64,000 bases of DNA from Solitalea canadensis DSM 3403 (GTDB lineage: Bacteria; Bacteroidota; Bacteroidia; Sphingobacteriales; Sphingobacteriaceae). A program made the position numbers and the translations under genes. Below, one piece after another: positions 44,821 to 64,000 of this stretch (position 1 is its first letter; every line of letters starts with the position of its first letter). The notes below the pieces were generated by a model that saw only the letters and a program-made list of their open reading frames with translations, was not told where the DNA came from and ran no database searches. Location: positions 2,244,669-2,308,668 of the forward strand of contig NC_017770.1 in NCBI RefSeq assembly GCF_000242635.2, in the 5' to 3' direction.

Positions 44821-45655
44821 TTAATCTTTAGCCTTATGAAATGATTTGATATTGTAAATGAAATTAAGGAAGAACATGTTTCCTTGAAATCTATTTTTAG
44901 CACCAAATTCAGTTATCCAACGAGCAGCAATCATCAATCTACTTTTAGGCAGAAAAACCCTCCCCTCTAAACCCGCTCCAAAAATATGATCCTTATCGCC
45001 TCCAAAATCAAGATTACCAATAGGAATTTCGTCTTCACTTACTTTAAATTGCATGTAATAAATAATGTCCGCATTAAAAATCTTTGGTATTGGACTTCCC
45101 TCAACCGGCTTGTAGATAGTTTTTGCCAAACCTCCTTGCAGAAAACTCGTTTATAAACATTCCTAAACCCGAGTTTTCTCCACCTAATGTGTATTTACCT
45201 GTAGGGATAAACATGCCATAGTCGACTGTGAAGTCAGCACTTTTTGTATGCCAACCCAATTGTATTGGCTGCAGGTAAATATCTGTAAAAGCAAAAACTC
45301 GAATTTGCATTTACTAAGTTACCTTCCACTTTATTTGATGCAAAAGGAATTAAGATGGTGTTAAATCCCCAGTTACCCCCAAGCACTTTAACATTCGTTA
45401 TCCCTGTTACTCCTAATCCGGTAAGAAAAGTATTAAGGTCTGTATTTATGGAAGCATCGTTATCAATGGCATATTTTCCGGTAGTGTAATAATAAACCGG
45501 AAGAAAAACATTGATAGAAGGCGGGCCTTGCGTTCCTGCATTCAGGCCGAGATCACCCAAAATATTTCCACCTTTTAGCTGTGCAAAGCTGAAACAGAAA
45601 AAAAGAAATTAATGAATAGGATGCAGTACGTTAAAAGGTTAACTATCTTTTTCAT
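44821..45655 (-). pseudogene. Broken porin-like outer-membrane transporter gene
   Basis: Translated pieces in three frames together spell one outer-membrane barrel similar to the MetA-pathway/phenol-degradation porin family: signal MKKIVNLLTYCILFINFF (from 45655), then FAQLKGGNILGDLGLNAG to about 45295 in a second frame, then AFTDIYLQPIQLGW...GMFINEFSA in a third, then GGLAKTIYKPVEGSPIPKIF to the stop at 44821. The first shift lies in an A7 run (45598-45604), the second in an A5 run (45293-45297), and the third joint (about 45140) also seems to lack some 30 or more residues between INEFSA and GGLAK. It ends the exported-protein gene run. Confidence 0.75.
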
Positions 45656-46960: not shown

Positions 46961-47000
46961 AAAAAACTAATTAGATGTATTTTTCATTAAGCATTGTTAA

Positions 47001-49427
47001 TCAATGTCTTCTGAAACCACCAGCTCTACCCTGTCTTTGAAAGCGTTCCGTTTGCGTTTGGCCGCGTTCGCGGGCAGAGACAGAATGATCCAGATTCTGA
47101 AATGTATGCTCATTTGTAGGATTTTGAAACCCTCTGTTTTCAGGCTCTCGTTGCACTCCACCTGTACCTCCGATTGGATTGCTACCAGTTCTTTCAGGAA
47201 TCGATGGGTGTTGTTCTGTTTTGCCTGCTAAATTACGTTGCCTATCAGCATCGGCTGTTTGTGCAGGTCTTTGTTGGTTAGTTCCCGCTGTTGCAGGCTT
47301 ATGCTGAGTACTACCTAATGTACCTGCTTGTGTCCAGCCGCCATCTTTATTATTATAATGTTGCCAGTTGCCATTATTATCTTTCCGGTAAACATTACCG
47401 TCTTTGCCTGCATAAATACCGTTATTAGTACGAACCGAGGTACCTCCATTAATACCATGAGTAACTACTCCCGATTGTCCGCTTGAAGTACGGTAACCTG
47501 TGGTGGTACCATATCGTGTAGTCACATGCCCTGTTTGTACCCATTGTCCTCCACGGGTTGCAACTGAACTTCCCCATTGGGCATAAGCATTGTGCCCTTG
47601 TGAAGTAGCAGCATATCCACCCGTCCAGGGATTGTATGCCTGAGCCACCGTTCTTCCTCCATACCACCCCTGAACACTTGCAGAGCGACCGTAACGACCT
47701 GTTACCGGATTATACCAGGCAGAAGTTCCGGCTGCACCATAAGGACCATAGACACGTCGGCCGGCAACATATCCACCTGTCCATGGATTGTAAACTACTC
47801 CTGCACCATAAGTACAAGGCCATGGACGATAAACCGGATAAGGATACGGGCCCCAGTAAACATAAGGAGGATAGTAATAACCTGTTCCGTAGGTAAGGCA
47901 CGCACCTAAAGCCATTCCAATAACAAACACACCGAGGTACCCCCCAGTCGTGCTGCTTTCAACAGTGGTTGGAGTAGCATTTGTTTGTGTTACGTAGGTA
48001 ACATTATAGACCGGAGAACTTGGAGGAATAGTATAAATTTCTTTAGGTACAGAATCGGCAGTTTTCCAGGGTCCGGTTGCGGTGGTCGACATAAACCAAA
48101 CTCCTTGAAAGCACAAATAATATAAGTCACCAACCTTAATTACTTTTTCTTGTGTATTGGTTGCATACTGCAGTGACGTTCCGGAAATTGGCTTAAACAC
48201 CGGGGTTCCGTCGTAATTAACCTTTACTTTTTTCTCCACTTCAGCTTTGTTTACCACCGCCGTTGTTGGAATCTGCGCCAACATTACAGCATCAGAAGCC
48301 TGTTGCGTACCCGGAACTGAGGCCAATACATTACCTCTTGGAGAATCTTCAGGAATTTTAGTAAAATCGGCCGGCAAGGAGTTTCCTGCGTAAACCCAGG
48401 GTCCTGTTAATGATTTTGATGAAAACCATCTACCAGAAAGCAATACGTAGTATAACCCATTTTGCTCAGAAGCAAACACATCATTATCTGTATTATCAAT
48501 ATACATTAACTGCGTATTGGGGATCTTAACAAACTTGGGATCTCCTTCTACCAAAATCAATTCGGCAGGTGAGCTGCTAAAAAATATATTGGGAGCTACA
48601 CCACCAACTTTAGGCGGAATCATTTTTTTAACCTCATCAAAGTTTTCGCCCGATGGCAGTTTGTCCATGTCGGCAGGAAGTTTGGTTGTAAGAGTCCAAT
48701 TCCCTTTTAAATCTTTGGACGTTAACCACATATGGTCGACCAAGAGGTAATAACTCTTACTTGTTTTTTCGAAAAAGAGATCCCAATTGGTGTTAACCAC
48801 ATATTGCATGCTATTTTTTTCAATAGGTGCCAATACAGGATTACCTTCTACGATCAATAGAATTGCCGGTTTTTGGCTGTAGAATATTGGAGGAGGATCA
48901 TTTTTTACGGCAACCGCCTTTGTTTGTATTTTACCTTTCTCCAAATCAGCCATTACCCGATCGACTGAAATAGGGTCGCCTGATTTAGGGACCAATTCTT
49001 TAAACAGGCCAGTCATTTTAGCTGATCGAGTATCATCAAGTGCCGGAAAACGAACATCATCCGCACCAATCTTTTTTAAATAGACGGTGTGATTCTCTTT
49101 ATCCACCATTGTTTCAGCACTAATGGATGCAACTCCTAAAGCTTCTTTTTCTCCCTTCGGTTTTAAGGAAAAAGCTACTCTCGCAGATAATATCTTAAAA
49201 TCTTTCCAATCATCAACCTGAGGCTGGTAGTAGGTTAAAGTATCTCCATCTTTGATTATTTCCCTCGGCCATCCCAAGTCTTTCGTTTGATCTGTAGTAT
49301 CTGCAGCTTTACCACTTACCACTCCATCTTTCTTCTCATGCTTGCAGGCCTCAGCGACTAAAACAATGCTTAATAATCCAATAATTATAGTTGTATTGAA
49401 AAATGTTCTTCGAATGAGGATTCTCAT
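47001..49427 (-). CDS. Large exported protein with three tandem domains and Gly/Tyr-rich tail
   Basis: The 808-aa protein begins with an export signal; Cys28 (AEAC) might be lipidated, but the site is poor. After residue 180 there are three copies of a domain of about 90 residues (180-270, 280-375, 405-480): each has IFYS or similar, VEGxP, a Tyr- and Asn-rich strand, YYLL and W(F/L)xSKxLxGxW. The C-terminal third is repeats rich in Gly, Tyr and Trp, such as YNPWTGGY (three times) and GWYGG. Similar proteins are sometimes called carbohydrate-binding family V/XII; I would not rely on that name. It is part of the run of exported proteins and may be envelope-associated. Confidence 0.75.
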   Translation of the reverse strand: MRILIRRTFFNTTIIIGLLSIVLVAEACKHEKKDGVVSGKAADTTDQTKDLGWPREIIKDGDTLTYYQPQVDDWKDFKILSARVAFSLKPKGEKEALGVASISAETMVDKENHTVYLKKIGADDVRFPALDDTRSAKMTGLFKELVPKSGDPISVDRVMADLEKGKIQTKAVAVKNDPPPIFYSQKPAILLIVEGNPVLAPIEKNSMQYVVNTNWDLFFEKTSKSYYLLVDHMWLTSKDLKGNWTLTTKLPADMDKLPSGENFDEVKKMIPPKVGGVAPNIFFSSSPAELILVEGDPKFVKIPNTQLMYIDNTDNDVFASEQNGLYYVLLSGRWFSSKSLTGPWVYAGNSLPADFTKIPEDSPRGNVLASVPGTQQASDAVMLAQIPTTAVVNKAEVEKKVKVNYDGTPVFKPISGTSLQYATNTQEKVIKVGDLYYLCFQGVWFMSTTATGPWKTADSVPKEIYTIPPSSPVYNVTYVTQTNATPTTVESSTTGGYLGVFVIGMALGACLTYGTGYYYPPYVYWGPYPYPVYRPWPCTYGAGVVYNPWTGGYVAGRRVYGPYGAAGTSAWYNPVTGRYGRSASVQGWYGGRTVAQAYNPWTGGYAATSQGHNAYAQWGSSVATRGGQWVQTGHVTTRYGTTTGYRTSSGQSGVVTHGINGGTSVRTNNGIYAGKDGNVYRKDNNGNWQHYNNKDGGWTQAGTLGSTQHKPATAGTNQQRPAQTADADRQRNLAGKTEQHPSIPERTGSNPIGGTGGVQREPENRGFQNPTNEHTFQNLDHSVSARERGQTQTERFQRQGRAGGFRRH

Positions 49428-49507
49428 AAATTGTATAATTAAAATTAAAGCATTTTAACTTCTATTAATTTACCATTTCAAACATTGAAAATCAATAAAC
49501 TAGCTTA

Positions 49508-50914
49508 TCAATTAATCTTGTTTACCGAAGGAATTTTATAGGTACCGTCGATCATTTCTTTCTTAGGCCAATAGACACGCAACAGTAGGTTAAAATCCCC
49601 TGCCGGAGCTGGCAACCAGTTACTTTCTTTATCTTTTCCGGGAGAATTATGTTGTATATAGATATCTGTAGAGCCATCAGTGTTAGTCTTAAGATTACTT
49701 CTATCGCCAATAGCATTACGATTGATCGGATTTTCAACCATGTACCCCTGTGGATCGTACATGGTTACTGACCAAAATGCATTAGCAGGTGGTGTTTGGC
49801 CTTTTTCAAACCGAATAACATAGTTATTGGCACCATTAAGGGAATTACCTTGACCATCAGAAAATGTAGAAGGGTATATCGCATCTTCAGGTAAATTAGC
49901 TCCTAACCCTCCAATAGCTATAAAAGCTCTTGAACTATAATCGGTACCATAACTACCGATTGTGCCTTTCATAGGATTCCACCCATTTACTAAACCTTTT
50001 GGCTTAGTGAAAAAATCATTGGCAATAGCAAAGAAATCAGCAGGTATTTTTTTCAAGGCTTCACGAGTAGCCTCATTAAATTTGCCGAGGTCAAATTTTC
50101 CTCCAGGAGTAATCCCTAGCGTAGCGAATTTATCAAGCATGGGTTTATCTGCTGCCGATGGTGGATTTTTTACCATTAGTTGATTGCTATAATTAAAAAA
50201 CTCATCAATTGGCATGGCTTGCACAATTTCATTTGGGCCTACTTTACTGAGAGTTGAATCAGGTGTGGCCTTAGGCGGAGTATAACTTTTACCCCAGTAA
50301 CTTAACGGTACCAACTTGTACTGACGTTGAAGAGGTACCACCACCTTGTCACCATCCTCTTTACTGTTTACCTGCGTACGGCCAATGATCCAAACCATAT
50401 TGGTGGGAGCTTTTATTTGCTTCATTTGCGAAGGGACGGTGCCATTCCAACCAGGACCGGTTATCAAGAATGTATTAGCTTTAGTACCTGTGGTTCTACT
50501 GCCCGGAGACGTAAAAACATTCGTATATGCATCTAACATTGGCATCATGTAGTATCGGCCATGCGTATCCGGAAGTGATAACACCAAAGGTTCAACAGAC
50601 AGATCTAATGAAGCGGTAGAATAATAAGTATCAGCATTGGGTCTTACTACATCACGAAAATGCGCATCGGGAAAGGAAGATTTATGGAAAAATGAATTAA
50701 TCGCAGCTGCATCTTTATTATTTCCATCGTTCATCTTTCTACGTGTAATGTCCATCAATACAAGAGGAACACTAAATACGAATGCATCCTTTGCTGTTTG
50801 AACAACAGCGGTATCAACTTTATCTGTCGAAGAACTTTCCTTGTTTTCCTTTTTATTTTGCTTACAAGAATAAAGCACAAGAATAAGTAACAAAATAGAG
50901 AGCGTTTTTTTCAT
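49508..50914 (-). CDS. DUF1254/DUF1214 lipoprotein 1 (typical form)
   Basis: The 468-aa lipoprotein (lipobox VLYSC, Cys17) has the N-terminal DUF1254 domain with RPNADTYYSTASLDLSVEPL, YYMMPMLDAYTNVFTSPGSR and WNGTVPSQMKQI, and the C-terminal DUF1214 domain with AFWSVTMYDPQGYMVENPI, DGSTDIYIQHNSPG and WLPAPAGDFNLLLRVYWP. Family members occur in many bacteria and have crystal structures, but the physiological substrate is not settled. This copy is nearest to the typical form; the other two are more divergent. It starts 9 nt after the stop of the AlkD-like gene. Confidence 0.88.
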   Translation of the reverse strand: MKKTLSILLLILVLYSCKQNKKENKESSSTDKVDTAVVQTAKDAFVFSVPLVLMDITRRKMNDGNNKDAAAINSFFHKSSFPDAHFRDVVRPNADTYYSTASLDLSVEPLVLSLPDTHGRYYMMPMLDAYTNVFTSPGSRTTGTKANTFLITGPGWNGTVPSQMKQIKAPTNMVWIIGRTQVNSKEDGDKVVVPLQRQYKLVPLSYWGKSYTPPKATPDSTLSKVGPNEIVQAMPIDEFFNYSNQLMVKNPPSAADKPMLDKFATLGITPGGKFDLGKFNEATREALKKIPADFFAIANDFFTKPKGLVNGWNPMKGTIGSYGTDYSSRAFIAIGGLGANLPEDAIYPSTFSDGQGNSLNGANNYVIRFEKGQTPPANAFWSVTMYDPQGYMVENPINRNAIGDRSNLKTNTDGSTDIYIQHNSPGKDKESNWLPAPAGDFNLLLRVYWPKKEMIDGTYKIPSVNKIN

Positions 50915-50922
50915 AGTTGTTT

Positions 50923-51636
50923 TTATTTCAGTTTCATGTAATACTCTTTTTCTTTTTTATCAAACTGTTCAATCGCACTACGTAATAATATTCGGGGCAT
51001 GGTTGTCGCATGTTTATCTAAAAAATGCAAAAGTCTTTTTTTATCCTTTGCACCCGCAAAACGTAACATCCAGCCTGCAGCTTTTTGAACAATATCTTCT
51101 GAATCATTTACTAATAATTCACCAATCTTAAAAGTGTCATTAACATCACCCTTTCTTATAAAATAGCAGGTACTTAATATGGCCGTTCGCCTTTTCCATA
51201 AATTTGCCGAAACCGCTAACTGATACAAAATATCCCGTGGTTTATCGAAAAGATAACTTCCTGTCATATACAAACAGCCTAAATCAACCAAATCCCAATT
51301 GTTTATCCGATCATGCCTGCGCATGTACAATTCATAAAAATCTTTTAACCTTTCCGGTGCAATCTTTTTACTGCGCGAGGCTTTATCCATGATACTAATA
51401 GCCCCCGCCCTGACTTCATGAATCTCACTGTCCAACAATTTTTCAATCTCTTCTATTGGCATTTCCCCAAACCCTTTGGCCAATTCAAAGAGTTGTCCCA
51501 TTTTCACTCCCATAAACACATCCTGTTCACTGTATTGTCCTTCCCCTGTTTTAAAGTAGCGTTGTATTTTTTCTTTTTCTTTATCCGATTGAAGTAATTG
51601 AAGTCTTTGGATAAAGTTTTCAGCTGTTAGGTTCAT
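50923..51636 (-). CDS. AlkD-like DNA alkylation repair protein (HEAT-like)
   Basis: A 237-aa helical protein of the AlkD family, HEAT-like DNA glycosylases that remove alkylated purines. NNWDLVD holds the Trp and Asp of the active-site region, and LWKRRTAILS the conserved Arg. No signal peptide, so it is cytosolic. It is set between two DUF1254 lipoprotein genes with gaps of 8 and 25 bp on the same strand. That close spacing makes co-transcription likely and is unexpected for a DNA repair enzyme. Whether it acts on DNA here is inferred from the motifs. Confidence 0.85.
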   Translation of the reverse strand: MNLTAENFIQRLQLLQSDKEKEKIQRYFKTGEGQYSEQDVFMGVKMGQLFELAKGFGEMPIEEIEKLLDSEIHEVRAGAISIMDKASRSKKIAPERLKDFYELYMRRHDRINNWDLVDLGCLYMTGSYLFDKPRDILYQLAVSANLWKRRTAILSTCYFIRKGDVNDTFKIGELLVNDSEDIVQKAAGWMLRFAGAKDKKRLLHFLDKHATTMPRILLRSAIEQFDKKEKEYYMKLK

Positions 51637-51661
51637 TCATTATATCATATAGATTTTCAAA

Positions 51662-53137
51662 CTATTTCATTTCTTCAATATCATCCATTTTCCAGCTTTT
51701 ATCAAAATAAGCCTTAGTTGGACCATAAAAGCGCACATAAGTAAACCAATGTTTTCCAGGAATTGTCTGTACCCAGTTCTTTTCTTTCCCTGCCGGAGCT
51801 GTTGGGCCAAAATACAGGTCTACTGATCCGTCATTGTTCTTAAGTAAATCTTTTCTTGAAGATAAGTCGGCATTCTTCTGTGGATTATCGATTAGGCAAC
51901 GAGTAGCTGCATCATAAATGGTCACAGACCAAAAATTTGCGGCCGGAGGATTTGCAGGCATCCTTAAATGATAGGATTTTGCTCCATCCAGCCAATTTCC
52001 ATCTTTGTCAGCATACGTGGCGAGATAGGCTTGTCCAAAATTAGGCGTTTTGCTGATCATAGCTTTTGAATAGCCAACCGCCTCATAGAAGTAAGAAGTT
52101 CGTTGAAAGAACTCATCATAGTTTTGAGCTCGTTGAGATGGATCACTGATAACCATTGGATAATCCCATTCTCTATCTGACCAATGTCGAGCATTTTCAA
52201 AACGTTTCTTAAACGAATTGGCAATAGCCATCAAATGCCCTCTATCGGCAGCAGCAGTCAGTATTTTCTTTTGACTTTCTGAGGGATTAAAAGGCTTACC
52301 AATCTTAATACCCAGGTTATCTAACCAGGCAATAAACAAGCGGTCACGTTCTTCAACCGGCTCGTTCTGTAAGATGTCATAAAGTCTTTTCCAATATTCT
52401 AAGCCTTGAGGCGGGGCCATAAGATATTTTTTCCCTCCTGGCGAAATTACTTTTGTTTGAGGTGAATTGTTTCGTTGTGAATATGGATAGAGTTTTACTG
52501 CATTTACTAGTGCTTCATCTTTTTTAGGGTCAGGATCTAGTGCACGCAGGCCAAACCAAATATTCATAGTAGGACAAGTTACATTAAAGTATCCAGGCAA
52601 TTTATCTGCTACCGATCCGGGAGGATAAAAAATAAACTTCCCTCCATTACCTTTATCAGGGCCTGCTTCACCAATCGCAATGATCTCTCGCTGCCAGCAA
52701 TCTGTTAAACCACCAGCAATAGCTCCAGGAGGCATTTCTATCACCATAGGACCTGTTTTAGCAAGATTAAAAAAAGACAAAATATACGGTGTAGTAGCAT
52801 TGGCAGTTAAAATGCCCAGCTTGTCTTCGTAAGTGTTATATAACACTAGATCATTTGATGTCGCCCCAAAAACTTTCTCCTGTGTTTCCATTTCTGATGC
52901 AAAAGATACTAATGGAAATGCCCACAAATAACATTGTGTAGCTTGTTGATAATCCATTTCATCAAATAAAATAGGAACTGACTCTTTTGCTGGCAGTTCT
53001 CCGTCCATTTTTATCTGGATAGGCTCAAGCTCCGATGCTGCTGTTTGAATAATTTTATTGCTTTCCTTTTCATTTTTAGACTGTTGCTTACATGACAAGA
53101 GCACAACAAAAGGAACTAACACGAAAAACATTTTCAT
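51662..53137 (-). CDS. DUF1254/DUF1214 lipoprotein 2
   Basis: The 491-aa lipoprotein (lipobox VLLSC, Cys16) has both domains in a divergent form: an N-terminal part with LYNTYEDKLGILTANATTPY and PMVIEMPPGAIAGGLTDCW, and a C-terminal DUF1214 with ANFWSVTIYDAATRCLIDNP, NNDGSVDLYFGPTAPAGKE and VRFYGPTKAYFDKSWKMDDI. It is closer to the third copy than to the first: both end in WKM-I/V-EEMK. It is 62 bp from copy 3 and 25 bp from the AlkD-like gene. Confidence 0.88.
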   Translation of the reverse strand: MKMFFVLVPFVVLLSCKQQSKNEKESNKIIQTAASELEPIQIKMDGELPAKESVPILFDEMDYQQATQCYLWAFPLVSFASEMETQEKVFGATSNDLVLYNTYEDKLGILTANATTPYILSFFNLAKTGPMVIEMPPGAIAGGLTDCWQREIIAIGEAGPDKGNGGKFIFYPPGSVADKLPGYFNVTCPTMNIWFGLRALDPDPKKDEALVNAVKLYPYSQRNNSPQTKVISPGGKKYLMAPPQGLEYWKRLYDILQNEPVEERDRLFIAWLDNLGIKIGKPFNPSESQKKILTAAADRGHLMAIANSFKKRFENARHWSDREWDYPMVISDPSQRAQNYDEFFQRTSYFYEAVGYSKAMISKTPNFGQAYLATYADKDGNWLDGAKSYHLRMPANPPAANFWSVTIYDAATRCLIDNPQKNADLSSRKDLLKNNDGSVDLYFGPTAPAGKEKNWVQTIPGKHWFTYVRFYGPTKAYFDKSWKMDDIEEMK

Positions 53138-53199
53138 AATATAACTTTAACTAATTATGATTTAATTAACTTTTAACACTAATACGTTCGTCAATTTGG

Positions 53200-54654
53200 T
53201 TATTTCATTTCTTCTACATTTCCCATTTTCCATACCTTATCAAAAAATCCTTTTTCAGGACCATAAAAACGAGCCAATAATTCAAATTCTCGTTTAGGAT
53301 CAGTCGGTACCCAATTAGACTCTTTCCCATCCGGTGCTTTTGGTCCGAAGTAAAGATCTACTGATCCATCTTCATTTTTTTGAATCCCGGGAGTTGTCGA
53401 AGCCTTACTAAAATGAGATACTCCTTTTAATAATGCGTGTGTATTACGATCGTATACGGTTACAGACCAATACAACTTTACAGGTACTTTAGCCGGTAAA
53501 TGCAACCGATACTGTTTAGAACCATCAAATGATTTACCATTGCTATCTTTTATAGTAAGCAAGTAAAACTGACCGGATCCCAAATGCTTAACACTGAAAT
53601 AAGCCATTGTATACGCTACGGCCTTACCATCAACCGGGTAATTATTGGGATCTGCATAGTTTTCTGACATTGCTTTGATCATTTCCGGTTTTGCCGGGAT
53701 AGCCCAATGTGTTCCTTCATAAAACGGTGGATCAAATACAGCTTCATATTTTTCGTTGAGCCATTTATGAGCATCTGTTATTGCAGTTGTAAGAATTTCT
53801 TTGGTACGGGCATCAGGATTAAAAGCTTTTCCTTTTTCAATGCCAATGGTTTTGAGTTGATCGACCATCGCCATATCTCGAGTTAACCATGGTTCGCGTT
53901 GAATAAAGGTGTTCAATGTTTCAAAAAAGCGAAGATCGTAAGGAATAATGTTATCAAACGGCACTTGCAATAAATCAACAAATGTTGTTTGAGGAGGATT
54001 GGCTGCTTGTGAATATGAATAAATCTTAACTTTCTTTCCATAATCAACTGCCCGGACTATATCTTGCTTGCTACCATCTGTTAGATTTGAACGTAGTATA
54101 ATAAACCCGGTATAAGTGGATGAAGGCATGGGAAAATAACCGGCAGGTACTTTATCCTTATATCCCGGAGGAAGAATCAAATATTTCCCACCTTTACCTT
54201 TATCAACACCTGCCGGGCCAACATCCTCTATAGCCGTTTGCCAACCATCATCTATTGAACCGGTAATGGAAGACGCACCCTTTGCAGGAGGTATTTCCAA
54301 AACTACCGGACCTTTTCGGGTGTCATAAAATGGATTAATATAAATGACATCCGGGTTAGGCGTTAGTGTTTGATTGTTTGCATTAATTAATCCCGACCAA
54401 TACACCACTTGGTTATAATCCCCTTTTGCTTTCAGTAGGCTTTCGTGCATTAATTCAGAGTTGACAGCCGGCATACCCCATATTACTGCATTAAATGCAC
54501 GACTATAGATAGCTTGCTCATTGGCGTTAGCGGGCTTAAATGCTTGAGATGTTGTGTCTTTTTTATTATTAACATCTCTTTTATTTTCAGCAGCTTTATT
54601 GCATCCTGTGAGCAATAAAATTGATAAACCATAAAGAACAATAGTTTCTTTCAT
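53200..54654 (-). CDS. DUF1254/DUF1214 lipoprotein 3
   Basis: The 484-aa lipoprotein starts MKETIVLYGLSILLLTGC (Cys18). An in-frame reading from 54699 would place 15 extra residues before the signal; I prefer the ATG at 54654, though the one at 54660 also works. DUF1254 part: MPAVNSELMHESLLKAKGD, NANNQTLTPNPDVIYINPF and GPVVLEIPPAKGASSITGS. DUF1214 part: LYWSVTVYDRNTHALLKG, NEDGSVDLYFGPKAPDGKE and ARFYGPEKGFFDKVWKMGNV. It lies 52 bp after the intact sulfatase gene, so the sulfatase and this protein are likely co-expressed. Confidence 0.87.
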   Translation of the reverse strand: MKETIVLYGLSILLLTGCNKAAENKRDVNNKKDTTSQAFKPANANEQAIYSRAFNAVIWGMPAVNSELMHESLLKAKGDYNQVVYWSGLINANNQTLTPNPDVIYINPFYDTRKGPVVLEIPPAKGASSITGSIDDGWQTAIEDVGPAGVDKGKGGKYLILPPGYKDKVPAGYFPMPSSTYTGFIILRSNLTDGSKQDIVRAVDYGKKVKIYSYSQAANPPQTTFVDLLQVPFDNIIPYDLRFFETLNTFIQREPWLTRDMAMVDQLKTIGIEKGKAFNPDARTKEILTTAITDAHKWLNEKYEAVFDPPFYEGTHWAIPAKPEMIKAMSENYADPNNYPVDGKAVAYTMAYFSVKHLGSGQFYLLTIKDSNGKSFDGSKQYRLHLPAKVPVKLYWSVTVYDRNTHALLKGVSHFSKASTTPGIQKNEDGSVDLYFGPKAPDGKESNWVPTDPKREFELLARFYGPEKGFFDKVWKMGNVEEMK

Positions 54655-54706
54655 AATCATTCTGGCAATGACTTGTATTAGTCGTTGTAAATGTGACACT
54701 TATCTA

Positions 54707-56239
54707 TTAATTTGACGGAGTGCTTAACTTTCGCATCACTTCATCTAAATTAAAACTAGCAGGTTTTTGTCTGGGAGGATATTGTTTAAAGGATTGGAGC
54801 CATTGTCCTACCAAAGCTTGTGATCCGTAAGTCATAGGTGCGTGGTGAACCAACCACAAGTTGTACATAATTGATTCATCGCCGCGTTCAAAAGGATCAG
54901 CATAAATATCGAACACTTTAGGAAACCGAAGTTTTTCAAACCCCTTCATCCATACGTCGAGTCCAGTATGATTTTGTTCTAAAAAAACAATCTTCCATCG
55001 ATTATAGCGGATAGCAAAGATATCACCATCATCGCTCCAATAAATGAATTCTTTACGAGGCGATTCTTTCACTTCACCTTTAAAGAAAGGAATTAAATTA
55101 TAGCCATCAAGATGAACTTTTGCCGTTTTACTTCCGAGTTTATATCCATTAAGCGTTTTAGAAACTACATCAGCATCTCCTGCAGCAGCACAAAAGGTCG
55201 GAAGGAAATCTTCATGAGAAAACATCTCATTATAAACGGTTCCAGGCTTAATAACATTTGGCCAACGAATTAAAGCCGGCACTCTAAAACCACCCTCCCA
55301 GTTTGTCGCTTTTTCACCTTTGAAAGGAGTAACACCTCCATCAGGCCAAGTCATTACTTCTGCTCCATTATCGGTTGTATATACAACTATGGTATTTTCG
55401 GCTATACCTAATTTATCTAATTCGTCCAGAAGCCTGCCAACATTATCATCATGTTCAGTCATGCCATCGGCTTGTAACCCCAACCCTGTTTTTCCGTCGT
55501 ATTTTGGACCCAAGTGAGTAAATACGTGCATACGAGTTGAGTTATACCAACAAAAGAAAGGCTTACCAGCTTTTACCTGTCTATCCATATAATCAATAGC
55601 TGCACTGGTAAACTCCTCGTCTACTGTTTCCATCCGTTTTTTGGTAAGAGGCCCGGTATCTTCAATTTTTCCATCTGCGGAAGATTTGATCACACCACGT
55701 GGTCCAAATTTCTTTTTGAATTCAGGCATTTTAGGGTAATCAGGATCTTCCGGTTCTTCTTCTGCATTTAGGTGGTAGAGATTTCCAAAAAACTCATCGA
55801 ATCCATGTTTTGTGGGCAAAAATTCATCTTTATCACCCAAGTGATTTTTTCCGAATTGACCTGTAGAATAACCTAACGTTTTTAAGTATTCTGCTATGGT
55901 AGGATCTTCACCCCTTAAGCCAATATCAGCACCAGGCATCCCTACTTTAGTTAATCCGGTACGGATAGGTGATTGTCCGGTTATAAAAGCAGCCCGCCCT
56001 GCAGTACAGCTTTGCTGGCCGTACCAGGAAGTAAACAAGGCCCCACTGGATGCAATACGATCAATATTGGGTGTGGTAAACCCCATCATCCCCCGGTTAT
56101 AACAACTTGGATTAAACCATCCAATATCATCTCCCATAATCACCAAAATATTGGGTTTCTTTTGGGCAAAAATTTGATTGCTTATCATCACTGTTAAAGC
56201 AACGATGAAGCATTTTCCAATTGTGATGACATTTTTCAT
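54707..56239 (-). CDS. Exported sulfatase (intact catalytic motifs)
   Basis: The 510-aa type I sulfatase has a signal peptide ending FAQ. Metal-site residues Asp37 and Asp38 (MGDDIG), the modifiable Cys78 in SCTAGR (a C-x-A-x-R form of the formylglycine motif, with Ala where Pro is usual), GKNHLG (Lys131, His133), HLG near 242 and TTDNG (Asp290, Asn291) are all present. It hydrolyses a sulfate ester in the periplasm after Cys is turned into formylglycine by a sulfatase-modifying enzyme, not encoded in this window. The substrate is unknown. It opens the run of sulfatase and DUF1254 genes. Confidence 0.9.
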   Translation of the reverse strand: MKNVITIGKCFIVALTVMISNQIFAQKKPNILVIMGDDIGWFNPSCYNRGMMGFTTPNIDRIASSGALFTSWYGQQSCTAGRAAFITGQSPIRTGLTKVGMPGADIGLRGEDPTIAEYLKTLGYSTGQFGKNHLGDKDEFLPTKHGFDEFFGNLYHLNAEEEPEDPDYPKMPEFKKKFGPRGVIKSSADGKIEDTGPLTKKRMETVDEEFTSAAIDYMDRQVKAGKPFFCWYNSTRMHVFTHLGPKYDGKTGLGLQADGMTEHDDNVGRLLDELDKLGIAENTIVVYTTDNGAEVMTWPDGGVTPFKGEKATNWEGGFRVPALIRWPNVIKPGTVYNEMFSHEDFLPTFCAAAGDADVVSKTLNGYKLGSKTAKVHLDGYNLIPFFKGEVKESPRKEFIYWSDDGDIFAIRYNRWKIVFLEQNHTGLDVWMKGFEKLRFPKVFDIYADPFERGDESIMYNLWLVHHAPMTYGSQALVGQWLQSFKQYPPRQKPASFNLDEVMRKLSTPSN

Positions 56240-56490
56240 ATTCTTATTGCTTTTGTTTTTAACTATTGATTTTGCCTAAATAAGGCCAAAGTATTATCGC
56301 AAAACCGCTTCATTTTTTGTTGGATTCTAATCATTTTATGCCGGATCCACGTTTTATACTGAGATTCCGGTTCTAATAATTCTTTTTCTGAATCACTTGC
56401 AACTAAAACAGGTGGGGATTTTGTCAAAAAATGAGAGCGTTTTGTCATTCGTTTAAATGGTTTTTACATAAAGTCTGATGAATGTTGTTG
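56240..56490. other. Gap upstream of the first sulfatase gene
   Basis: It holds a 61-codon minus-strand open frame (56263-56448; MTKRSHFLTKSPPVLVASDS...) with no recognisable relatives, no signal and no clear promoter. I consider it doubtful. The promoter of the sulfatase gene must lie here, but no exact TAnnTTTG is seen. Confidence 0.4.
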
Positions 56491-56525
56491 CAAAAAATAA
56501 TACCTGCCGGTCCGAAGACCGACAG
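56490..56525 (-). terminator. UUCG-loop terminator of the sulfatase 2/HAD operon
   Basis: On the minus strand CTGTCGGTC (56525-56517), loop TTCG, then GACCGGCAG (56512-56504): 9 pairs with one G-U, closing an extra-stable UUCG tetraloop, followed by a T6 run at 56497-56492. Confidence 0.85.
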
Positions 56526-56555
56526 ATATAGCTAAACTATTAGAGAGCATGTTTC

Positions 56556-57536
56556 TTATTCAAATGAAAAAATCTTCTTCCAATCATTTTTCATGCTGAT
56601 GATTATCCAGCCTCTTTTTGGCCCTTCATCTAAGCCCTTATTTAATGTGCCTATTTTTGACTGACGATCATAAGCAAACTCGCGATCGGCGTCATCATGA
56701 TGAACGATTAACCCTAATCGTTTACCTGAAGCAGAAGTGGTGTATTCCAGCATTTGAAAATCGCCGTCTGAATTTCCAAAAGCAGCGATCGGAATTCGAC
56801 CAATGTGCTCGTGTATGCCTACCGGTTTTCCCTCTTTATCATCCAATAAGCTTAAAGCCGGAGTTCGTAACAAAGAAGGGACTCCATCAACAACCTGATA
56901 TTTCAGTTTCATTTTAGTACCCACGATCTGTTCCGGAGGAATTCCATAAACCCGTTCGGCCCAAACACGCATAAAATCAATATCTCCACCCGAAACAATA
57001 AATGTTTTAAACCCATTTGCACGTAGATAAGTCAAAACCTCTAACATGGGCTGAAATACACATTCAGTATAGAGTTTCTTAAATTTTGGATGTTGAGCGG
57101 ATTCAATCCATTCTTTCACAGAAGCGTTAAACACATCAGTAGTCATTCCGGCATGGGTCGCCATCATGATGGCCAGCAGTGATTTCTCCCCTCCTGCCAA
57201 AGCACCTTTCATACTACCGGCCAGTACCGATTTAAATGGTTCCTTGGTTTTCCACTCCGGATGTTTAGGTGCCAATACTTTAACCTGATCCACGGCAAAC
57301 AGAAACTGAAAATACAGCGGTTGTTCACTCCATAATGTTCCATCGTTATCAAATATGGCTATACGCTCAGGTATGGGTACAAAATCAGCCGATCCCTCCG
57401 TTGTAACAGCTTTCACAAAATCGATAATGGACTGTTTTGTTGCCCCTTCATTCCATGAGGGCAAGGGATCTTGTGCTAATAGGTTTAACGGAAAAATGAA
57501 AAGCAGGAAGAAGAACGACCTTAAAAAAGCTTTCAT
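56556..57536 (-). CDS. Periplasmic HAD-family phosphatase
   Basis: A 326-aa exported protein (signal ending NLLAQ) of the haloacid dehalogenase superfamily. Motif I FDNDGTLW gives the nucleophile Asp63 and Asp65, motif II is in FIVSGGDIDFM, and motif IV reads GNSDGD. The WAERVYGIPPEQIVGTKMKL part resembles phosphoserine-phosphatase-like members. It lies 52 bp after the second sulfatase gene in the same transcript and before a strong terminator. Substrate unknown; the pairing suggests phosphate release from the same substrate class as the sulfatase. Confidence 0.87.
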   Translation of the reverse strand: MKAFLRSFFFLLFIFPLNLLAQDPLPSWNEGATKQSIIDFVKAVTTEGSADFVPIPERIAIFDNDGTLWSEQPLYFQFLFAVDQVKVLAPKHPEWKTKEPFKSVLAGSMKGALAGGEKSLLAIMMATHAGMTTDVFNASVKEWIESAQHPKFKKLYTECVFQPMLEVLTYLRANGFKTFIVSGGDIDFMRVWAERVYGIPPEQIVGTKMKLKYQVVDGVPSLLRTPALSLLDDKEGKPVGIHEHIGRIPIAAFGNSDGDFQMLEYTTSASGKRLGLIVHHDDADREFAYDRQSKIGTLNKGLDEGPKRGWIIISMKNDWKKIFSFE

Positions 57537-57588
57537 AACGTTTACATTAATAAGGCAATCTCATTAGTAATAAGATTGCCCTGATTCC

Positions 57589-59097
57589 TTATTTCTTACC
57601 AATATTTCTATTTAGTTCTTCAATAACCTGGTCTATTGAAAACGATGCAGGTCGCTGACGTGGTGGAAACTGTCGATAGGAAGCTAAATAAGCACCTACT
57701 TTCTCTACTGCAGGTAATATCAGGTATGCATGATGGGTTAACCAATCATCATAACCTGATGCACCACTATAAGAATATTCATAAGGATCTGACTTTAAAT
57801 CAATAATTACCGGAGCACGCAGGTTCATCATTGGATTTCTCCAAATATCCATTCCGGTAGCATTTTGAATGGAGAAAATATATTTGAAACGTTCATCTCG
57901 ATAAGCAACTAAATGTCCGTCATCATCAAAATAAACAAATTCTTTACGAGGGCTTTTGGCTGATTTTCCTTCTAGGTAATCAACCTGATTATAACCATCC
58001 AGGTACACTTTGAAGTTTTTACTACCAGCCTGAAATCCGTTCCTCACCTTAGTGGTTAAACTTTGATCATCTCCTGTAGCAGCTACAAGTGTAGGAAGCC
58101 AATCCTCTGCTGAAAAAAGTTCTGTTAAATTTGTCCCTGGCTTAATATGGCCTGGCCAACGTACTAAAGCAGGAACACGGTAAGCACCCTCCCAGTTAGT
58201 ATCTTTTTCTGAACGGAATGGAGATGCACCACCATCAGGCCACTGATTTTTCATGGCTCCGTTACCAGAGGTATAAATAACAATTGTATTATCTGCTACG
58301 CCCAGTTCATCTAAAACTTTCAGGAGTTCACTAACCATTGCATCATGTTCAACCATTCCATCTCCTTGGATGCCTGCATCAGTTTTACCCTGTGAAGCTG
58401 GTTTTAAATGTGTATAAACATGCATTCGAGTTGAATTAAACCAAGTAAAAAATGGTTTTCCAGCCTTAACCTGACGGGTAATAAAATCTTTTGCTGCTGT
58501 AAAAAATTCTTCATCTACCGTTTCCATTCTTTTCTTGGTTAATGGTCCGGTGTCTTCTATTTTTCCATCAGCAGTTGATTTCAAAACTCCTCTCGGACCG
58601 AATTTTTTCTTAAACTCAGGGTCTTTGGGATAATCCGGACTTTCGGGTTCTTCCTCAGGATTAAGATGATATAGGTAGTGGTTTTTACCAAACTGTCCAC
58701 ATACATACCCTAGCGGTTTTAAAAATTCGGCAATCGTAGGATCTTCTTTTTGCAAGCCAATTGACGAGCCTGGTAGCCCAACTTTAGTTAATTCGGTTCG
58801 AAAAGGACATTGCCCCGTTATAAAAGCGGCCCTTCCGGCCGTACAACTCTGTTGCCCATAATAATTTACAAAGACACCACCTTCTGCTCCTATCTTATCA
58901 ATATTTGGAGTCATAAATCCCATCAACCCTCTGCTATAAGCACTCACATTTGACACGCCAATATCATCTCCAAAAATGACCAGGATATTAGGCTTTTTTT
59001 GGGCTTGAGATTCGAAAGCATTAAGAAAAAGTAATCCGAATGAAAAGGAGTATATCGATCTTTTGATAACCCTTAGGAGACGCGTTCCGTTAATCAT
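57589..59097 (-). CDS. Exported sulfatase paralog, probably impaired
   Basis: The 502-aa sulfatase has a signal peptide ending SQAQ and about two-thirds of its sequence like the neighbour at 54707. Asp44, Asp45, the SCTAGR motif (Cys85) and GKNH (Lys138, His140) are kept. Two lesions stand out: after GKNH the twenty residues LGDKDEFLPTKHGFDEFFGN of the neighbour are replaced by a single Tyr, and the metal-site TTDNG has become TSGNG (Gly278; one A-to-G change from Asp). These suggest weak or lost activity or a changed role. It is the first gene of a two-gene operon with the HAD phosphatase. The frame is intact, so it is still translated. Confidence 0.87.
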   Translation of the reverse strand: MINGTRLLRVIKRSIYSFSFGLLFLNAFESQAQKKPNILVIFGDDIGVSNVSAYSRGLMGFMTPNIDKIGAEGGVFVNYYGQQSCTAGRAAFITGQCPFRTELTKVGLPGSSIGLQKEDPTIAEFLKPLGYVCGQFGKNHYLYHLNPEEEPESPDYPKDPEFKKKFGPRGVLKSTADGKIEDTGPLTKKRMETVDEEFFTAAKDFITRQVKAGKPFFTWFNSTRMHVYTHLKPASQGKTDAGIQGDGMVEHDAMVSELLKVLDELGVADNTIVIYTSGNGAMKNQWPDGGASPFRSEKDTNWEGAYRVPALVRWPGHIKPGTNLTELFSAEDWLPTLVAATGDDQSLTTKVRNGFQAGSKNFKVYLDGYNQVDYLEGKSAKSPRKEFVYFDDDGHLVAYRDERFKYIFSIQNATGMDIWRNPMMNLRAPVIIDLKSDPYEYSYSGASGYDDWLTHHAYLILPAVEKVGAYLASYRQFPPRQRPASFSIDQVIEELNRNIGKK

Positions 59098-59440
59098 GAG
59101 AATTTAGTATTTGTTAAACATTATGAAATGATTTGCAATACTTATTCGCTCCGGAACGGTATTTAAAAAGCTAATACGAAATGTAAAGAGATACTACAGA
59201 ATGAGAGCACATAAGTAAATTTTGATTACAACTATTAATTTACAATTTTAATTCAAACAAAAACAACATTTTATTTAAAAACAGGTATTGTTATTCATTA
59301 TATCATTTGTCTTAATTAAAAAACAATCCTCCTCCACGATATTCATGTTATTCATTTTTTTTACTGATTAATTATTATTAATTTCCTGTATATCACTTTG
59401 ATATAGAGTACTATGAAGCTTTGTATCATTAAATAACGCT
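59098..59440. other. Divergent gap between the sulfatase 2 and Bat operons
   Basis: A 343-bp AT-rich spacer without genes. It must hold promoters in both directions; CTTTGATATAG and GAAGCTTTGTATC upstream of the Bat operon are similar to, but not exact matches with, TAnnTTTG. No hairpin of note. Confidence 0.4.
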
Positions 59441-60382
59441 ATGCTCTCTTTTCAAAAAAAAACACAAACACCAAAAACTGAGGTGGCAGTAACACTTGAT
59501 AGTTTACTGCTGCAACAATATCATTCATCATCACTACGCTTTTTTCTACATCAGCTTTCTTCTACTGTTTTAGCCGGAAGACATCTTTCTCACATACGCG
59601 GACGAGGTTTAGATTTCGAGGATTCAAGAATTTATGTACCTGGAGATGATATCCGCAACCTCGACTGGAAAATCAGTGCTCGCACCGGAAAAACACATAC
59701 TAAGGTTTTTAATGAGGAAAAGGACAAAGTCTTGCTGGTAATGGTCGATCAAACTTCAGGTATGTTTTTCGGTACAATTAATAAAACAAAATCAGTTGTA
59801 GCGGCAGAGTTGGGTGCATTGATTGGCTTTAGCACGTTAGACAATGGTGACCGTTTTGGAGGCATTGTTTTTAATGAAACGGATAGTTTTTTATTGCGCC
59901 CATCGAAAATGAAGTCGTCCCTAACGCGCTTTCTTCAGGTACTTACAGACTATAACCAAAACCTAGTAAAGACCAAATCATATAGTGCAGAAAGTGAGAA
60001 ATACACAGAGAACATACTTAAGCAATTAGCATCACTTACTTCTCAAAACATGATGGTTGCATTAGTAAGTGATTTCAGGCGATTGAAAAATGAAACTTAT
60101 GAACATCTAGCTCATTTACGAATGCATAATGACGTAATTCTGTTCCATGTATATGATCCATTTGAATGGCAGTTGCCCGAACAAGAGTTTATTTATAGCA
60201 ATGGTAAACGCCAGATCAGGGTTAAAAACAATCAAAAAAGTTTGATAAGAAAAATCAATAAACACTTTTCAGATAGTCGTAATGATTTTTTTGACAAGAT
60301 ATCTGGTCTCAAGATTCCGGTAATTCATATTAATACAGAAGAGCCAGTAGCTGAACAGTTCGGAAAATGGTTTGCCAAATAA
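59441..60382 (+). CDS. DUF58 domain protein, Bat operon
   Basis: The 313-aa protein carries the DUF58 domain with SHIRGRGLDFEDSRIYVPGD and the family hallmark DIRNLDWKISARTGK. A VWA-like fold follows (VLLVMVDQTSGMFFGT), though the metal-ion site is changed. No membrane segment is clear. DUF58 proteins usually work next to a MoxR-type AAA+ ATPase, which is absent at the 5' side here. It is the first gene in a plus-strand operon with short gaps or overlaps. Confidence 0.9.
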   Translation: MLSFQKKTQTPKTEVAVTLDSLLLQQYHSSSLRFFLHQLSSTVLAGRHLSHIRGRGLDFEDSRIYVPGDDIRNLDWKISARTGKTHTKVFNEEKDKVLLVMVDQTSGMFFGTINKTKSVVAAELGALIGFSTLDNGDRFGGIVFNETDSFLLRPSKMKSSLTRFLQVLTDYNQNLVKTKSYSAESEKYTENILKQLASLTSQNMMVALVSDFRRLKNETYEHLAHLRMHNDVILFHVYDPFEWQLPEQEFIYSNGKRQIRVKNNQKSLIRKINKHFSDSRNDFFDKISGLKIPVIHINTEEPVAEQFGKWFAK

Positions 60383-60391
60383 ACATTCATT

Positions 60392-60868
60392 ATGGAGCCA
60401 TCAAAAGCATTAGATACCCTTCCGCCTCCTGTCCTTCATCCCGCAATAGAGCCACCCCCTATTGAGTTCTCATACGCTGCGCCAGGATGGTGGTTATTAT
60501 TATTGCTTATCATTGGATTGGTTTACCTAATTATTAAAACAACCATTCACTATCTACAACAAAATGCCTATAAAAAACAAGCGCTAAAAACAATTAAAAA
60601 TATTACGTCTACTTCGCCGGAGCCTTATTTAACTGTATTAAAAAACACTGCAATTCAGGCGTATGGCCGAGAACAGGTGGCAGGATTGTATGGAAAGACC
60701 TGGATTGATTTTCTTGATCGCTCCATTAATGGAAAGCAATCCATAGCATCGATTGAACATTTCTTTGGTAATGAATTATATACTGAAACAGCTACGGTAA
60801 AAAACACAGAGGAACTAAAAAACTATGTAATTTTTTGGATTAAACATCATGCTGCACGACTGGCTTAA
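60392..60868 (+). CDS. DUF4381-like small membrane protein, Bat operon
   Basis: The 158-aa protein has one membrane segment (about 31-52: GWWLLLLLIIGLVYLIIKTT) after a Pro-rich stretch and a soluble domain with LTVLKNTAIQAYGREQVAGLYGKTW, as in DUF4381 proteins found between DUF58 and VWA genes. It starts 9 bp after the DUF58 gene and overlaps the next gene by 20 bp. Its function is unknown; it may assemble the VWA membrane proteins. Confidence 0.85.
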   Translation: MEPSKALDTLPPPVLHPAIEPPPIEFSYAAPGWWLLLLLIIGLVYLIIKTTIHYLQQNAYKKQALKTIKNITSTSPEPYLTVLKNTAIQAYGREQVAGLYGKTWIDFLDRSINGKQSIASIEHFFGNELYTETATVKNTEELKNYVIFWIKHHAARLA

Positions 60869-61889
60869 TAGTATTGACTGGCACCACCTGGCTAAGCAAT
60901 TTGGTGTTGATGCTGAAGGAACTTTTCAGTGGGGACGCCCCTGGGCTTACTGGTTATTGCCTGTACCCTTAATTGTTTGGTTGTTATATCCACCTAAGAA
61001 ATACAAGGCAGCTTCTTTACGATTCCCTTCCTTTGACCGTTTGCATGAGGCCTCAGGAATTCGCACCAAAAAAGGAACCAGGATTTTACACCGCAGTTTA
61101 CTTCAGTTTATCAGCATGTGGGTGGTCTGGGTGCTGATTATAGTAGCATTTGCCGATCCTCGCTTGATCGGTAAACCTGATAGAAAAATAATTACCAGCA
61201 GAAGCTTTTTAATTACTGCTGATATTTCTAATAGTATGGGAACAACAGACTGGTCGGTAAACGGACATGCAGCCAGTCGATGGACGGCAGTTAGATCGGT
61301 TATGAATGAGTTTATTCAACGAAGAGAGGGTGACCGTATGGGCTTAGTTTTATTTGCCTCTCAGCCATTTCTGCAAACACCGTTCACGCCGGATTTATCA
61401 GTCGTAAAAACATTATTAAATGAATCGGATGTGGGTATGGCCGGACAAGTTACTGCCATTGGCGATGCAATTGGCTTAGGAATCAAGCTTTTTAGATCCG
61501 ATACTTTGAAAACAAAAGTAATGCTTTTGCTAACAGATGGAGTTGATGCAGGCACTAATATCAGTCCGCTGGATGCCGCTTCCGCCGCTGCCCGCGATGG
61601 TATTATTATCTACACCATTGGAATCGGACAGCATCAACGATTTGGAAGCGATCTGGATGAAGGTACTTTACAGGGAATTGCTGCCCGAACCGGTGGAAAG
61701 TATTTCAGAGCTTATAATCACCAGAGTTTAGAACAAGTTTATAAGACACTTGATCAACTTCAACCCATAAAATTCACAGAAGAACAATATAAACCAGTTA
61801 CTGAGCTTTATTTCATTCCACTATCGGCAGCCCTGGCTTTAGGCGTGGCGACTTTGTTTGTGATGAGTTTAGTGAGGTTGTTTGTTTAA
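60849..61889 (+). CDS. batA: VWA membrane protein, BatA type
   Basis: A 346-aa protein with membrane segments at about 34-48, 88-103 and at the C-terminus (about 325-344), around a periplasmic or cytosolic VWA domain. The metal-ion-dependent adhesion site reads DISNSMG (Asp125, Ser127, Ser129), with LTDGVDAG further on. This matches BatA of the Bacteroidota aerotolerance operon. It overlaps the preceding gene by 20 bp. A word-repeat element (copy 3 of the ATTACGGGTT family) lies between it and the next gene. Confidence 0.88.
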   Translation: MLHDWLNSIDWHHLAKQFGVDAEGTFQWGRPWAYWLLPVPLIVWLLYPPKKYKAASLRFPSFDRLHEASGIRTKKGTRILHRSLLQFISMWVVWVLIIVAFADPRLIGKPDRKIITSRSFLITADISNSMGTTDWSVNGHAASRWTAVRSVMNEFIQRREGDRMGLVLFASQPFLQTPFTPDLSVVKTLLNESDVGMAGQVTAIGDAIGLGIKLFRSDTLKTKVMLLLTDGVDAGTNISPLDAASAAARDGIIIYTIGIGQHQRFGSDLDEGTLQGIAARTGGKYFRAYNHQSLEQVYKTLDQLQPIKFTEEQYKPVTELYFIPLSAALALGVATLFVMSLVRLFV

Positions 61890-63683: not shown

Positions 63684-64000
63684 ATGGTTTTTAGAATTAA
63701 AACATTGGTTAAATCTATACTGCATAAGAAACAGCAGTTTCTTTTGGGTTTCAGCTATGCTTTTATTCATCTTTTCCTTTTCATTGTACTCATCCTGTTA
63801 TCCATCTCTGTTCGGGCACAGGATGCTCATGCTTATATTGATTTAAGTATTTCACCTAAAAAAGTATATGCGGGACAACCTGCAATTTTAACCTACACTG
63901 TTTATACGGATCAATATTTTACGCAACCACCAGAGGTAAGCAATTTGCAAATGAATGGTGCTTTTTTAGTTCCTTATGATCGTTCGTATTCAATTACATT
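63684..64000 (+). CDS. batD: BatD-like protein, N-terminal part (runs off the right edge)
   Basis: The visible 105 residues have a membrane signal segment (about 23-47, ending SVRAQ) and a beta-sandwich start DLSISPKKVYAGQPAILTYTV, as in BatD (oxygen tolerance protein) of Bacteroidota. Start ATG at 63684. It follows the BatB/C gene by 14 bp, completing the usual order. Confidence 0.8.
   Translation, partial: MVFRIKTLVKSILHKKQQFLLGFSYAFIHLFLFIVLILLSISVRAQDAHAYIDLSISPKKVYAGQPAILTYTVYTDQYFTQPPEVSNLQMNGAFLVPYDRSYSIT

Follow-up and report, generated by a model that had tools for sequence, protein, structure and literature searches.

The 64,000-nucleotide stretch of the Solitalea canadensis DSM 3403 genome analysed here (contig NC_017770.1, positions 2,244,669 to 2,308,668; "the window") carries a run of genes for exported sulfatases and their companions. 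Divergent from this run, and starting 343 bp from its outermost sulfatase gene (sulfatase 2, S2), is an operon of the MoxR/Bat type, ordered DUF58-DUF4381-VWA1-VWA2/TPR-BatD-MoxR (VWA, von Willebrand factor A domain; TPR, tetratricopeptide repeat). We found that this operon belongs to a clade that accompanies one sulfatase subfamily in several phyla, and a functional link between clade and subfamily is very probable. We propose that the locus combines a sulfatase pathway with a dedicated, ATP-driven maturation machine that would load the Ca2+ of the sulfatase active site and is laid out like the mxa system of methanol dehydrogenase; we give the reading as a whole a probability of roughly 55%. 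That the operon matures a client in some manner is likely. That its particular step is Ca2+ loading is a more tentative suggestion, made because metal loading is what the known relatives (mxa, NorQD) suggest.

A tree built from 56 concatenated operons first showed the clade; for it, DUF4381 was searched in 40 of 80 source genomes (28 matching, with 42 copies, all fetched). Fifteen gammaproteobacterial copies group together, and near none of them is a sulfatase of the subfamily, haloacid dehalogenase (HAD) protein, formylglycine-generating enzyme (FGE), anaerobic sulfatase-maturating enzyme (anSME) or DUF1254 protein encoded. The 38 members of a second clade have a sulfatase of the subfamily in 32 cases, HAD in 16, FGE/anSME in 16 and DUF1254 in four (the last not significant). 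Several genomes hold one operon copy of each clade, and the unlinked gammaproteobacterial clade thus serves as a within-genome control. Because the genomes of this first tree had been chosen for having the sulfatase, further searches were begun from DUF4381 instead. In a tree of 114 operons, the second clade comprises 78 rows from the Bacteroidota, Planctomycetes, alphaproteobacteria and gammaproteobacteria (support 100 in the Shimodaira-Hasegawa-like approximate likelihood-ratio test, SH-aLRT). Of these 78, 58 have an A1-type sulfatase of at least 500 bits somewhere in the sequence read around them (up to ~20 kb); none of the 36 operons outside the clade does. This linkage label changes 13 times on the tree, against 38.4 times when shuffled (0 of 500 shuffles were as low). 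It is also clustered on the sulfatase tree (9 changes versus 39), where labels were given per locus, so that sulfatase 1 (S1) of the window counted as linked. The trees were quick searches under LG+G4 with SH-aLRT support only, and the rows are related, which makes Fisher values descriptive; flagged in the 114-row tree are the long branch of L264 and a meeting of long branches (the Rahnella group with Marinobacter). Families were called with hidden Markov models built from window and locus proteins, and some contigs (e.g. L247 and L257) are too short for neighbours to show.

The arrangement is conserved as well. In the 58 linked operons, the nearest sulfatase shares the operon's strand 55 times and flanks the moxR end of the usual order 54 times (51 times both), at a median gap of 779 bp. 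Accessory genes follow the same clade: when score floors are applied to the larger set, 17 of 78 members have HAD and 19 of 78 have FGE/anSME, versus 0/36 outside for each.

Searches that started from DUF4381 give the same picture (the window's own genome and the chosen centres being excluded). Inside the clade, the sulfatase accompanies the operon in genome G291 of the window's class (1/1), on plasmids (5/5), in alphaproteobacteria (2/2) and in 24 of 38 members of Gemmata's class. Outside it, the counts are 0/3 for plasmids, 0/18 for alphaproteobacteria and 0/2 for the weak copies of the window's class. The class names (Bacteroidia for the window, Alphaproteobacteria, and Planctomycetia for Gemmata) were inferred from relatives and named centre loci. 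In the window's class, eight of 247 genomes pass the DUF4381 cut-off, but only the window's own and G291 exceed 100 bits; the other six are weak (~27-35 bits), and the two of these that were read (L160, L161) are an outgroup lying outside the clade. Both strong genomes have the operon adjoining the sulfatase. With the subfamily in at least nine of the 247 genomes, the chance that both fall among those nine is 36/30381, or about 0.001 (by hand); the window's own genome is not a random draw, and without it the figure is 1/1 among 8/246, a chance of about 0.03. Such genome-wide sulfatase counts are lower bounds, since at most six candidates per genome were scored in the window's class and at most four in the alphaproteobacteria. 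Among the plasmid records, five of eight have the sulfatase, and these are exactly the five inside the clade. In the alphaproteobacteria, DUF4381 occurs in 23 of 308 genomes and the sulfatase in at least 8 of 308; in the three genomes with both (one a chosen centre), the pair is 2-4 kb apart. Twenty of the 25 alphaproteobacterial DUF4381 copies besides the centre genome's were fetched, and the two with a sulfatase lie inside the clade and the 18 others outside. In Gemmata's class, 39 of 397 genomes have DUF4381, and all 38 besides the chosen Gemmata fall inside the clade. DUF4381 at large was rejected as a marker for the sulfatase: 20 of the 23 alphaproteobacterial genomes that have it show no sulfatase of the subfamily at E 1e-100, and only the clade is linked. 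A Hyphomicrobium DUF58 locus was set apart by eye as another system, from the lengths and starts of its open reading frames (ORFs).

The operon is probably not the source of formylglycine. Ser-type sulfatases (L077, L104, L112, L123, L023) have anSME in the locus in five of five cases, compared with 18 of 118 Cys-type enzymes, and the operon is present in four of the five Ser-type loci; the other linked sulfatases are Cys-type, some with FGE. A role as formylglycine maker was therefore discarded. The operon occurs with both routes, accompanying and not replacing them, and so probably does something else. In S. canadensis, all five FGE-family matches are distant from the locus, and the maturase may thus come from elsewhere in the genome.

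Motifs of an ATP-driven machine are largely conserved. MoxR keeps Walker A in 35 of 37 proteins and Walker B in 37 of 37, and the metal-ion-dependent adhesion site (MIDAS) of VWA1 is intact in 38 of 38. VWA1 and VWA2 each have two N-terminal transmembrane segments in 36 of 38 cases, and the loop between these carries the strongest positive charge in 31 of 36 VWA1 and 35 of 36 VWA2 proteins. On this hydropathy and charge estimate, the VWA domains are predicted to be periplasmic, alongside the exported sulfatase. Profile comparison with the Methylococcus mxa operon pairs MxaR with MoxR (E 7e-35), MxaS with DUF58 (1e-11), MxaC with VWA1 (4e-15), MxaK with the TPR tail of VWA2 (3.5e-7) and, more weakly, MxaL with VWA2 (1.7e-5). 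That operon was read as MxaF, J, G, R, S, A, C, K, L, D, names assigned from gene order; with the ORF length applied here, MxaI did not appear.

The proposed system would have two halves. In one, exported sulfatases, a HAD phosphatase, DUF1254/1214 lipoproteins and an outer-membrane barrel would handle a compound that is desulfated, and perhaps dephosphorylated, in the periplasm; the HAD and DUF1254 genes support such an enzyme pathway. The other would be the divergent MoxR/Bat operon. Cytosolic MoxR, with DUF58, would hydrolyse ATP, and the energy would pass via membrane-anchored DUF4381, VWA1/VWA2 and BatD into a conformational change of the periplasmic VWA domains. A VWA MIDAS site could then grip the exported sulfatase and open it, allowing its active-site Ca2+ to be loaded, as MxaRSACKL is reported to do for methanol dehydrogenase. 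It is possible, and we advance it with reserve, that a separate MoxR/VWA/BatD clade exchanged between phyla constitutes a dedicated, ATP-driven metal insertase for one periplasmic sulfatase subfamily.

What would the client be in S. canadensis? Three sulfatases of the subfamily lie at the locus: S1 and S2 in the window, and S3 beyond it. The residues CxxxR, Asp-Asp, Lys, His and Asp-Asn define type I (formylglycine) sulfatases; the Asp-Asp and Asp-Asn of the arylsulfatase-type active site bind Ca2+, and such sulfatases are Ca2+ enzymes. S1 aligns with human arylsulfatase A through the active-site motifs. S1 and S3 keep D37, D38, C78, R82, K131, H133, H238, D290, N291 and K310 (S1 numbering) and are type I enzymes by these residues; S2, their homologue, departs from the set. 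It has no counterpart of the 19-residue block 134-152 that follows GKNH, and Asp290, a metal-site residue in the TDNG motif, is replaced by Gly. The block is absent in one of 123 distinct relatives and Asp290 is replaced in one of 122 (L106 having no letter at that position), in both cases S2 itself. Judged from these changes, S2 is probably an inactive pseudo-enzyme beside two intact paralogues. If the machine works in this genome, S3 is the likely client. A Chryseolinea protein shares 80% identity with S1, an Ensifer plasmid protein 72%, and the remaining plasmid proteins of the Pseudomonadota among the best 20 rows of 589 records 61-69%; 513 of the 589 records are below 60%.

Several observations weigh against the proposed pathway and machine. 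Twenty of the 78 clade members have no such sulfatase in the stretch read. Fourteen of these are from Gemmata's class, with weaker sulfatase matches in three (255, 209 and 51 bits) and none in eleven; sulfatases abound in genomes of that class, against which its 24 of 38 has to be read. The six sulfatase-less members of the first-tree clade showed no obvious common neighbour by eye, and one of them, L207, has FGE and HAD. Conversely, 64 of 80 named loci of the subfamily show fewer than three of the operon families within 10 kb, so that only some sulfatase subclades would depend on the machine, but some of those contigs are short, and L085 (3.4 kb) shows the sulfatase adjoining a MoxR gene. Seven of the nine sulfatase-bearing genomes of the window's class have no strong DUF4381; the machine is thus not generally required. 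The nearest neighbours of S1 on the sulfatase tree have no operon in their loci, although two of these genomes (L207, L216) carry one elsewhere. In the window, the usual order is altered (moxR is last and the sulfatases are divergent), and it is the damaged S2 that lies closest to the operon. Only 13 of 38 VWA2 proteins retain the strict MIDAS motif, MxaA matches BatD weakly (E 1.3e-3, probability 18%) and DUF4381 with a probability of 2%, and a comparison of the alignment found no residue that clearly separates operon-linked from other sulfatases. DUF1254 is near the operon in five of 78 members versus 0/36 outside (P 0.18, not significant).

These facts have to be set against other explanations of the same locus. 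The linkage data would equally fit a MoxR/Bat operon that serves the sulfatase as a chaperone of a general kind, for folding, membrane anchoring or export assembly, and not as a metal loader, and published work describes MoxR/VWA pairs that remodel without metal insertion, e.g. Rubisco activases, CbbQO. The closest layout, that of mxa, is assigned to Ca2+ insertion, however, and we consider such a chaperone rather unlikely. It is improbable that sulfatase and operon are fellow travellers on a mobile island, with the operon acting in envelope stress or aerotolerance and the sulfatase no client of it. Both halves are indeed patchy, partly plasmid-borne and present in several phyla, and Bat operons are named for aerotolerance (PMC3557215), but the link holds across phyla with position and strand fixed (51 of 58 upstream on the same strand), is absent from the 36 operons outside the clade, and is paralleled by sulfatase maturases that track the same clade.

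A first-pass annotation of the window had read the sulfatase-HAD-DUF1254 run as an envelope pathway for a small sulfated or phosphorylated compound; were this a self-sufficient catabolic pathway, the Bat operon would be a chance neighbour in this genome. Sulfatase-DUF1254 neighbourhoods without the operon in the stretch read do exist (L027-L030, L049, L052, L065, L072, L078), and the placement of S1 among unlinked relatives agrees with them. Yet the two nearest relatives of S2 on the sulfatase tree, from Deminuibacter and then Gemmata, both adjoin the operon, the nearest relative of S3 is Gemmata's other sulfatase, and the only two genomes of 247 in the class with strong DUF4381 have it next to the sulfatase. 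We regard a chance neighbourhood as very improbable, and the combination of sulfatase pathway and maturation machine as the best reading.

Sulfatase loci in other genomes support a sulfatase pathway of the envelope that is not of the SusCD type. Three or more of the six operon families lie within ~10 kb in 16 of the 80 named loci; HAD is present in 24, FGE or anSME in 19 and DUF1254 in seven. The fullest parallel is plasmid pR132501 of Rhizobium leguminosarum, which carries in succession DUF1254 (interrupted by a stop in this strain), a MetA-type porin, an alpha/beta hydrolase, an arylsulfatase, MoxR, DUF58, DUF4381, two VWA proteins, BatD, FGE and HAD. A Gemmata locus has HAD, two sulfatases, DUF1254 and MoxR/Bat. 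The first-pass annotation had named failure to find the genes together elsewhere as an outcome that would refute it; in these two genomes they do occur together. The three plasmid copies of Persicobacter include the sulfatase without exception; HAD accompanies it in one, an Omp85-like barrel in one. In Vibrio (L022), an exported protein of ~780 residues with many CxxCH haem motifs and TPR-like repeats (by eye) is encoded between sulfatase and moxR; relatives 60-68% identical occur in L229, L231 and L232. A redox partner inside a sulfatase locus would be odd.

The genes of the window and its flank are listed in the table below. For positions 47001-59097, the first-pass annotation was accurate in order, strand, coordinates and families (two Sulfatase, HAD, three DUF1254+DUF1214, DNA_alkylation in Pfam). 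Its short gaps were borne out (7-80 bp between the listed ORFs, with 316 bp between the HAD gene and S1), as was export of all products but one: seven of eight have a signal peptide or lipobox by eye, the AlkD-like protein being the exception. There is no SusCD, in that the longest ORF of the window is 808 codons, none is SusC-sized and the run has no SusC/SusD Pfam match; a polysaccharide utilization locus was dropped as a candidate for this reason. What the annotation overlooked is the damage to S2 and the best-supported partner, the MoxR/Bat operon, one gene short of which it stopped. At the other end, the same-strand run continues past its boundary to the Omp85 gene at 45689 and probably to a frameshifted MetA-type porin.

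Table. Genes of the sulfatase run, the MoxR/Bat operon and its flank. Positions are those of the window unless given as genome positions.
Feature	Position	Strand	Basis or remark
Decayed MetA-type porin (Phenol_MetA_deg), three frames	44824..45608	-	possible former last gene of run
Omp85-superfamily outer-membrane barrel, 423 aa	45689..46960	-	PF01103 E 3.6e-10
Repeat lipoprotein, 808 aa, three W-rich repeats and low-complexity tail	47001..49427	-	no Pfam or NCBIfam match
DUF1254/DUF1214 lipoprotein a	49508..50914	-	PF06863 E 1.9e-48, PF06742 E 2.3e-37
AlkD-like HEAT-repeat protein	50923..51636	-	PF08713 (DNA_alkylation) E 1.4e-54; no signal peptide by eye
DUF1254/DUF1214 lipoprotein b	51662..53137	-	Pfam DUF1254+DUF1214
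DUF1254/DUF1214 lipoprotein c, VPA0735 fold	53200..54699	-	Pfam; PDB 3vb9/2p3y E 3e-62
Sulfatase 1 (S1), Cys type CTAGR	54707..56239	-	PF00884 E 3.2e-52
Exported HAD phosphatase-like hydrolase	56556..57536	-	PF12710; PDB 4ovy E 2.5e-123
Sulfatase 2 (S2), degenerate, frame intact	57589..59097	-	Pfam Sulfatase; alignment
DUF58 protein	59441..60382	+	PF01882 E 1.6e-33
DUF4381 membrane protein	60392..60868	+	PF14316 E 9e-31
VWA1 (BatA-like), MIDAS intact, VWA domain predicted periplasmic	60849..61889	+	PF00092
VWA2 (BatB-like) with TPR tail (BatC-like)	61984..63669	+	PF13519, TPR
BatD start	63684..64000, continues to genome 2309806	+	beyond window
moxR	genome 2309837-2310853, beyond window	+	last operon gene
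L,D-transpeptidase, DUF1634, TauE/SafE permease, second Omp85-like barrel, then S3	genome 2310877-2317853 (L026 8877-15853)		after operon
Sulfatase 3 (S3), same subfamily, intact	genome 2316285-2317853, beyond window		residue check

Two pieces of the porin remnant exceed the Pfam cut-off of 22 (44824-45150, 23.1 bits; 45104-45310, 27 bits), and the piece 45237-45608 has no Pfam match. This porin family is also near the sulfatase in L020, L052, L165 and L169, rhizobia included (Pfam-checked in L020 and L165), and in L164 and L224 relatives of the Omp85 barrel lie close to operons belonging to the sulfatase-linked clade. The repeat lipoprotein matches nothing in Pfam or NCBIfam, and its structure model is poor (predicted local distance difference test score, pLDDT, 60). 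It has relatives in a sulfatase locus (L058) and in L216, where the gene adjoins BatD on the same strand when only the families scanned are counted. The HAD protein is very close to PDB 4ovy, a HAD hydrolase, and VWA2 scores under the cut-off of the NCBIfam BatB and BatC models. The cytosolic AlkD-like protein, encoded between two of the DUF1254 lipoproteins, occurs in the window only, among the loci scanned, and is probably a passenger. The TauE/SafE permease could, by its family, be an exporter of sulfite or sulfate; none of the other loci scanned has it.

The genome is a single contig of 5.2 Mb, and all three of its DUF1254 matches fall within the run. DUF1254 is present in 7 of 150 relatives' genomes; besides the window's own genome, two of its family (G004, G023) have five matches each. 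G+C content is 0.37-0.42 over positions 46000-64000, which hold sulfatases and operon, and 0.32-0.38 in the rest of the window. A value at or above the top of the remaining range is in keeping with transfer, and the sulfatase module of the window was probably acquired horizontally.

The biochemistry of Bat operons is unsettled, and few MoxR/VWA machines have known clients. With a clade linked to an enzyme that is soluble and easy to assay, metal loading and folding could be distinguished directly. If the proposal is correct, the operon would provide a third step of sulfatase maturation, beside formylglycine formation and export, for which mxa would be the methanol dehydrogenase counterpart. 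Further, if some sulfatases need the machine, this might be why environmental sulfatases fail in heterologous hosts, and co-expression might be the cure. In the open-access papers searched, no title or abstract start joins sulfatases with MoxR, VWA or Bat, or DUF1254 with sulfatase; the single mention, in PMC7159879, is of an FGE-like domain in other systems.

Arylsulfatase A and PDB 7aj0, both type I sulfatases, are related to the window sulfatases over most of their length and have identical active-site motifs, but the window sulfatases form a separate bacterial subfamily, the 80 loci of which are 59-80% identical to S1. All three lipoproteins have the DUF1254+DUF1214 domains, and the fold of VPA0735 (PDB 3vb9, 2p3y) was checked on c: its model (pLDDT 73) matches 3vb9 with Z 34.9, root-mean-square deviation 3.5 and 416 residues aligned, and its C-terminal half matches the RetS sensor and carbohydrate-binding jelly-rolls weakly (Z 4-6.6). 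VPA0735 is uncharacterized according to the entry titles, whereas the window proteins look like lipoproteins and sit in a sulfatase run.

The canonical Bat operon is moxR-DUF58-batA-batB-batC-batD(-batE), with no DUF4381. The Bacteroides aerotolerance (Bat) operon, moxR-DUF58-batABCDE, shares MoxR, DUF58 and the BatA-, BatB-, BatC- and BatD-like proteins with the window operon, which differs in having DUF4381, in the fusion of TPR to VWA2 and in adjoining sulfatases. NorQ/NorD is not known to include DUF58, DUF4381 or BatD. Passages of PMC13036017 state that MoxR/VWA pairs such as NorQD facilitate metal insertion, and describe one ATPase of MoxR type with one VWA partner, acting on the iron of nitric oxide reductase. 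The nearest likeness is to mxaRSACKL, which has MoxR, DUF58, membrane proteins with two VWA domains and TPR, and adjoins an exported metalloenzyme; passages of PMC6028718 and PMC11845868 assign Ca2+ insertion into methanol dehydrogenase to MxaACKL(D). Its client contains pyrroloquinoline quinone, where the window operon has sulfatases, and in the window DUF4381 and BatD stand in the place of MxaA (homology being weak or absent) and TPR is fused to VWA2. The window operon is thus not an mxa operon, but by this analogy it may work like one.

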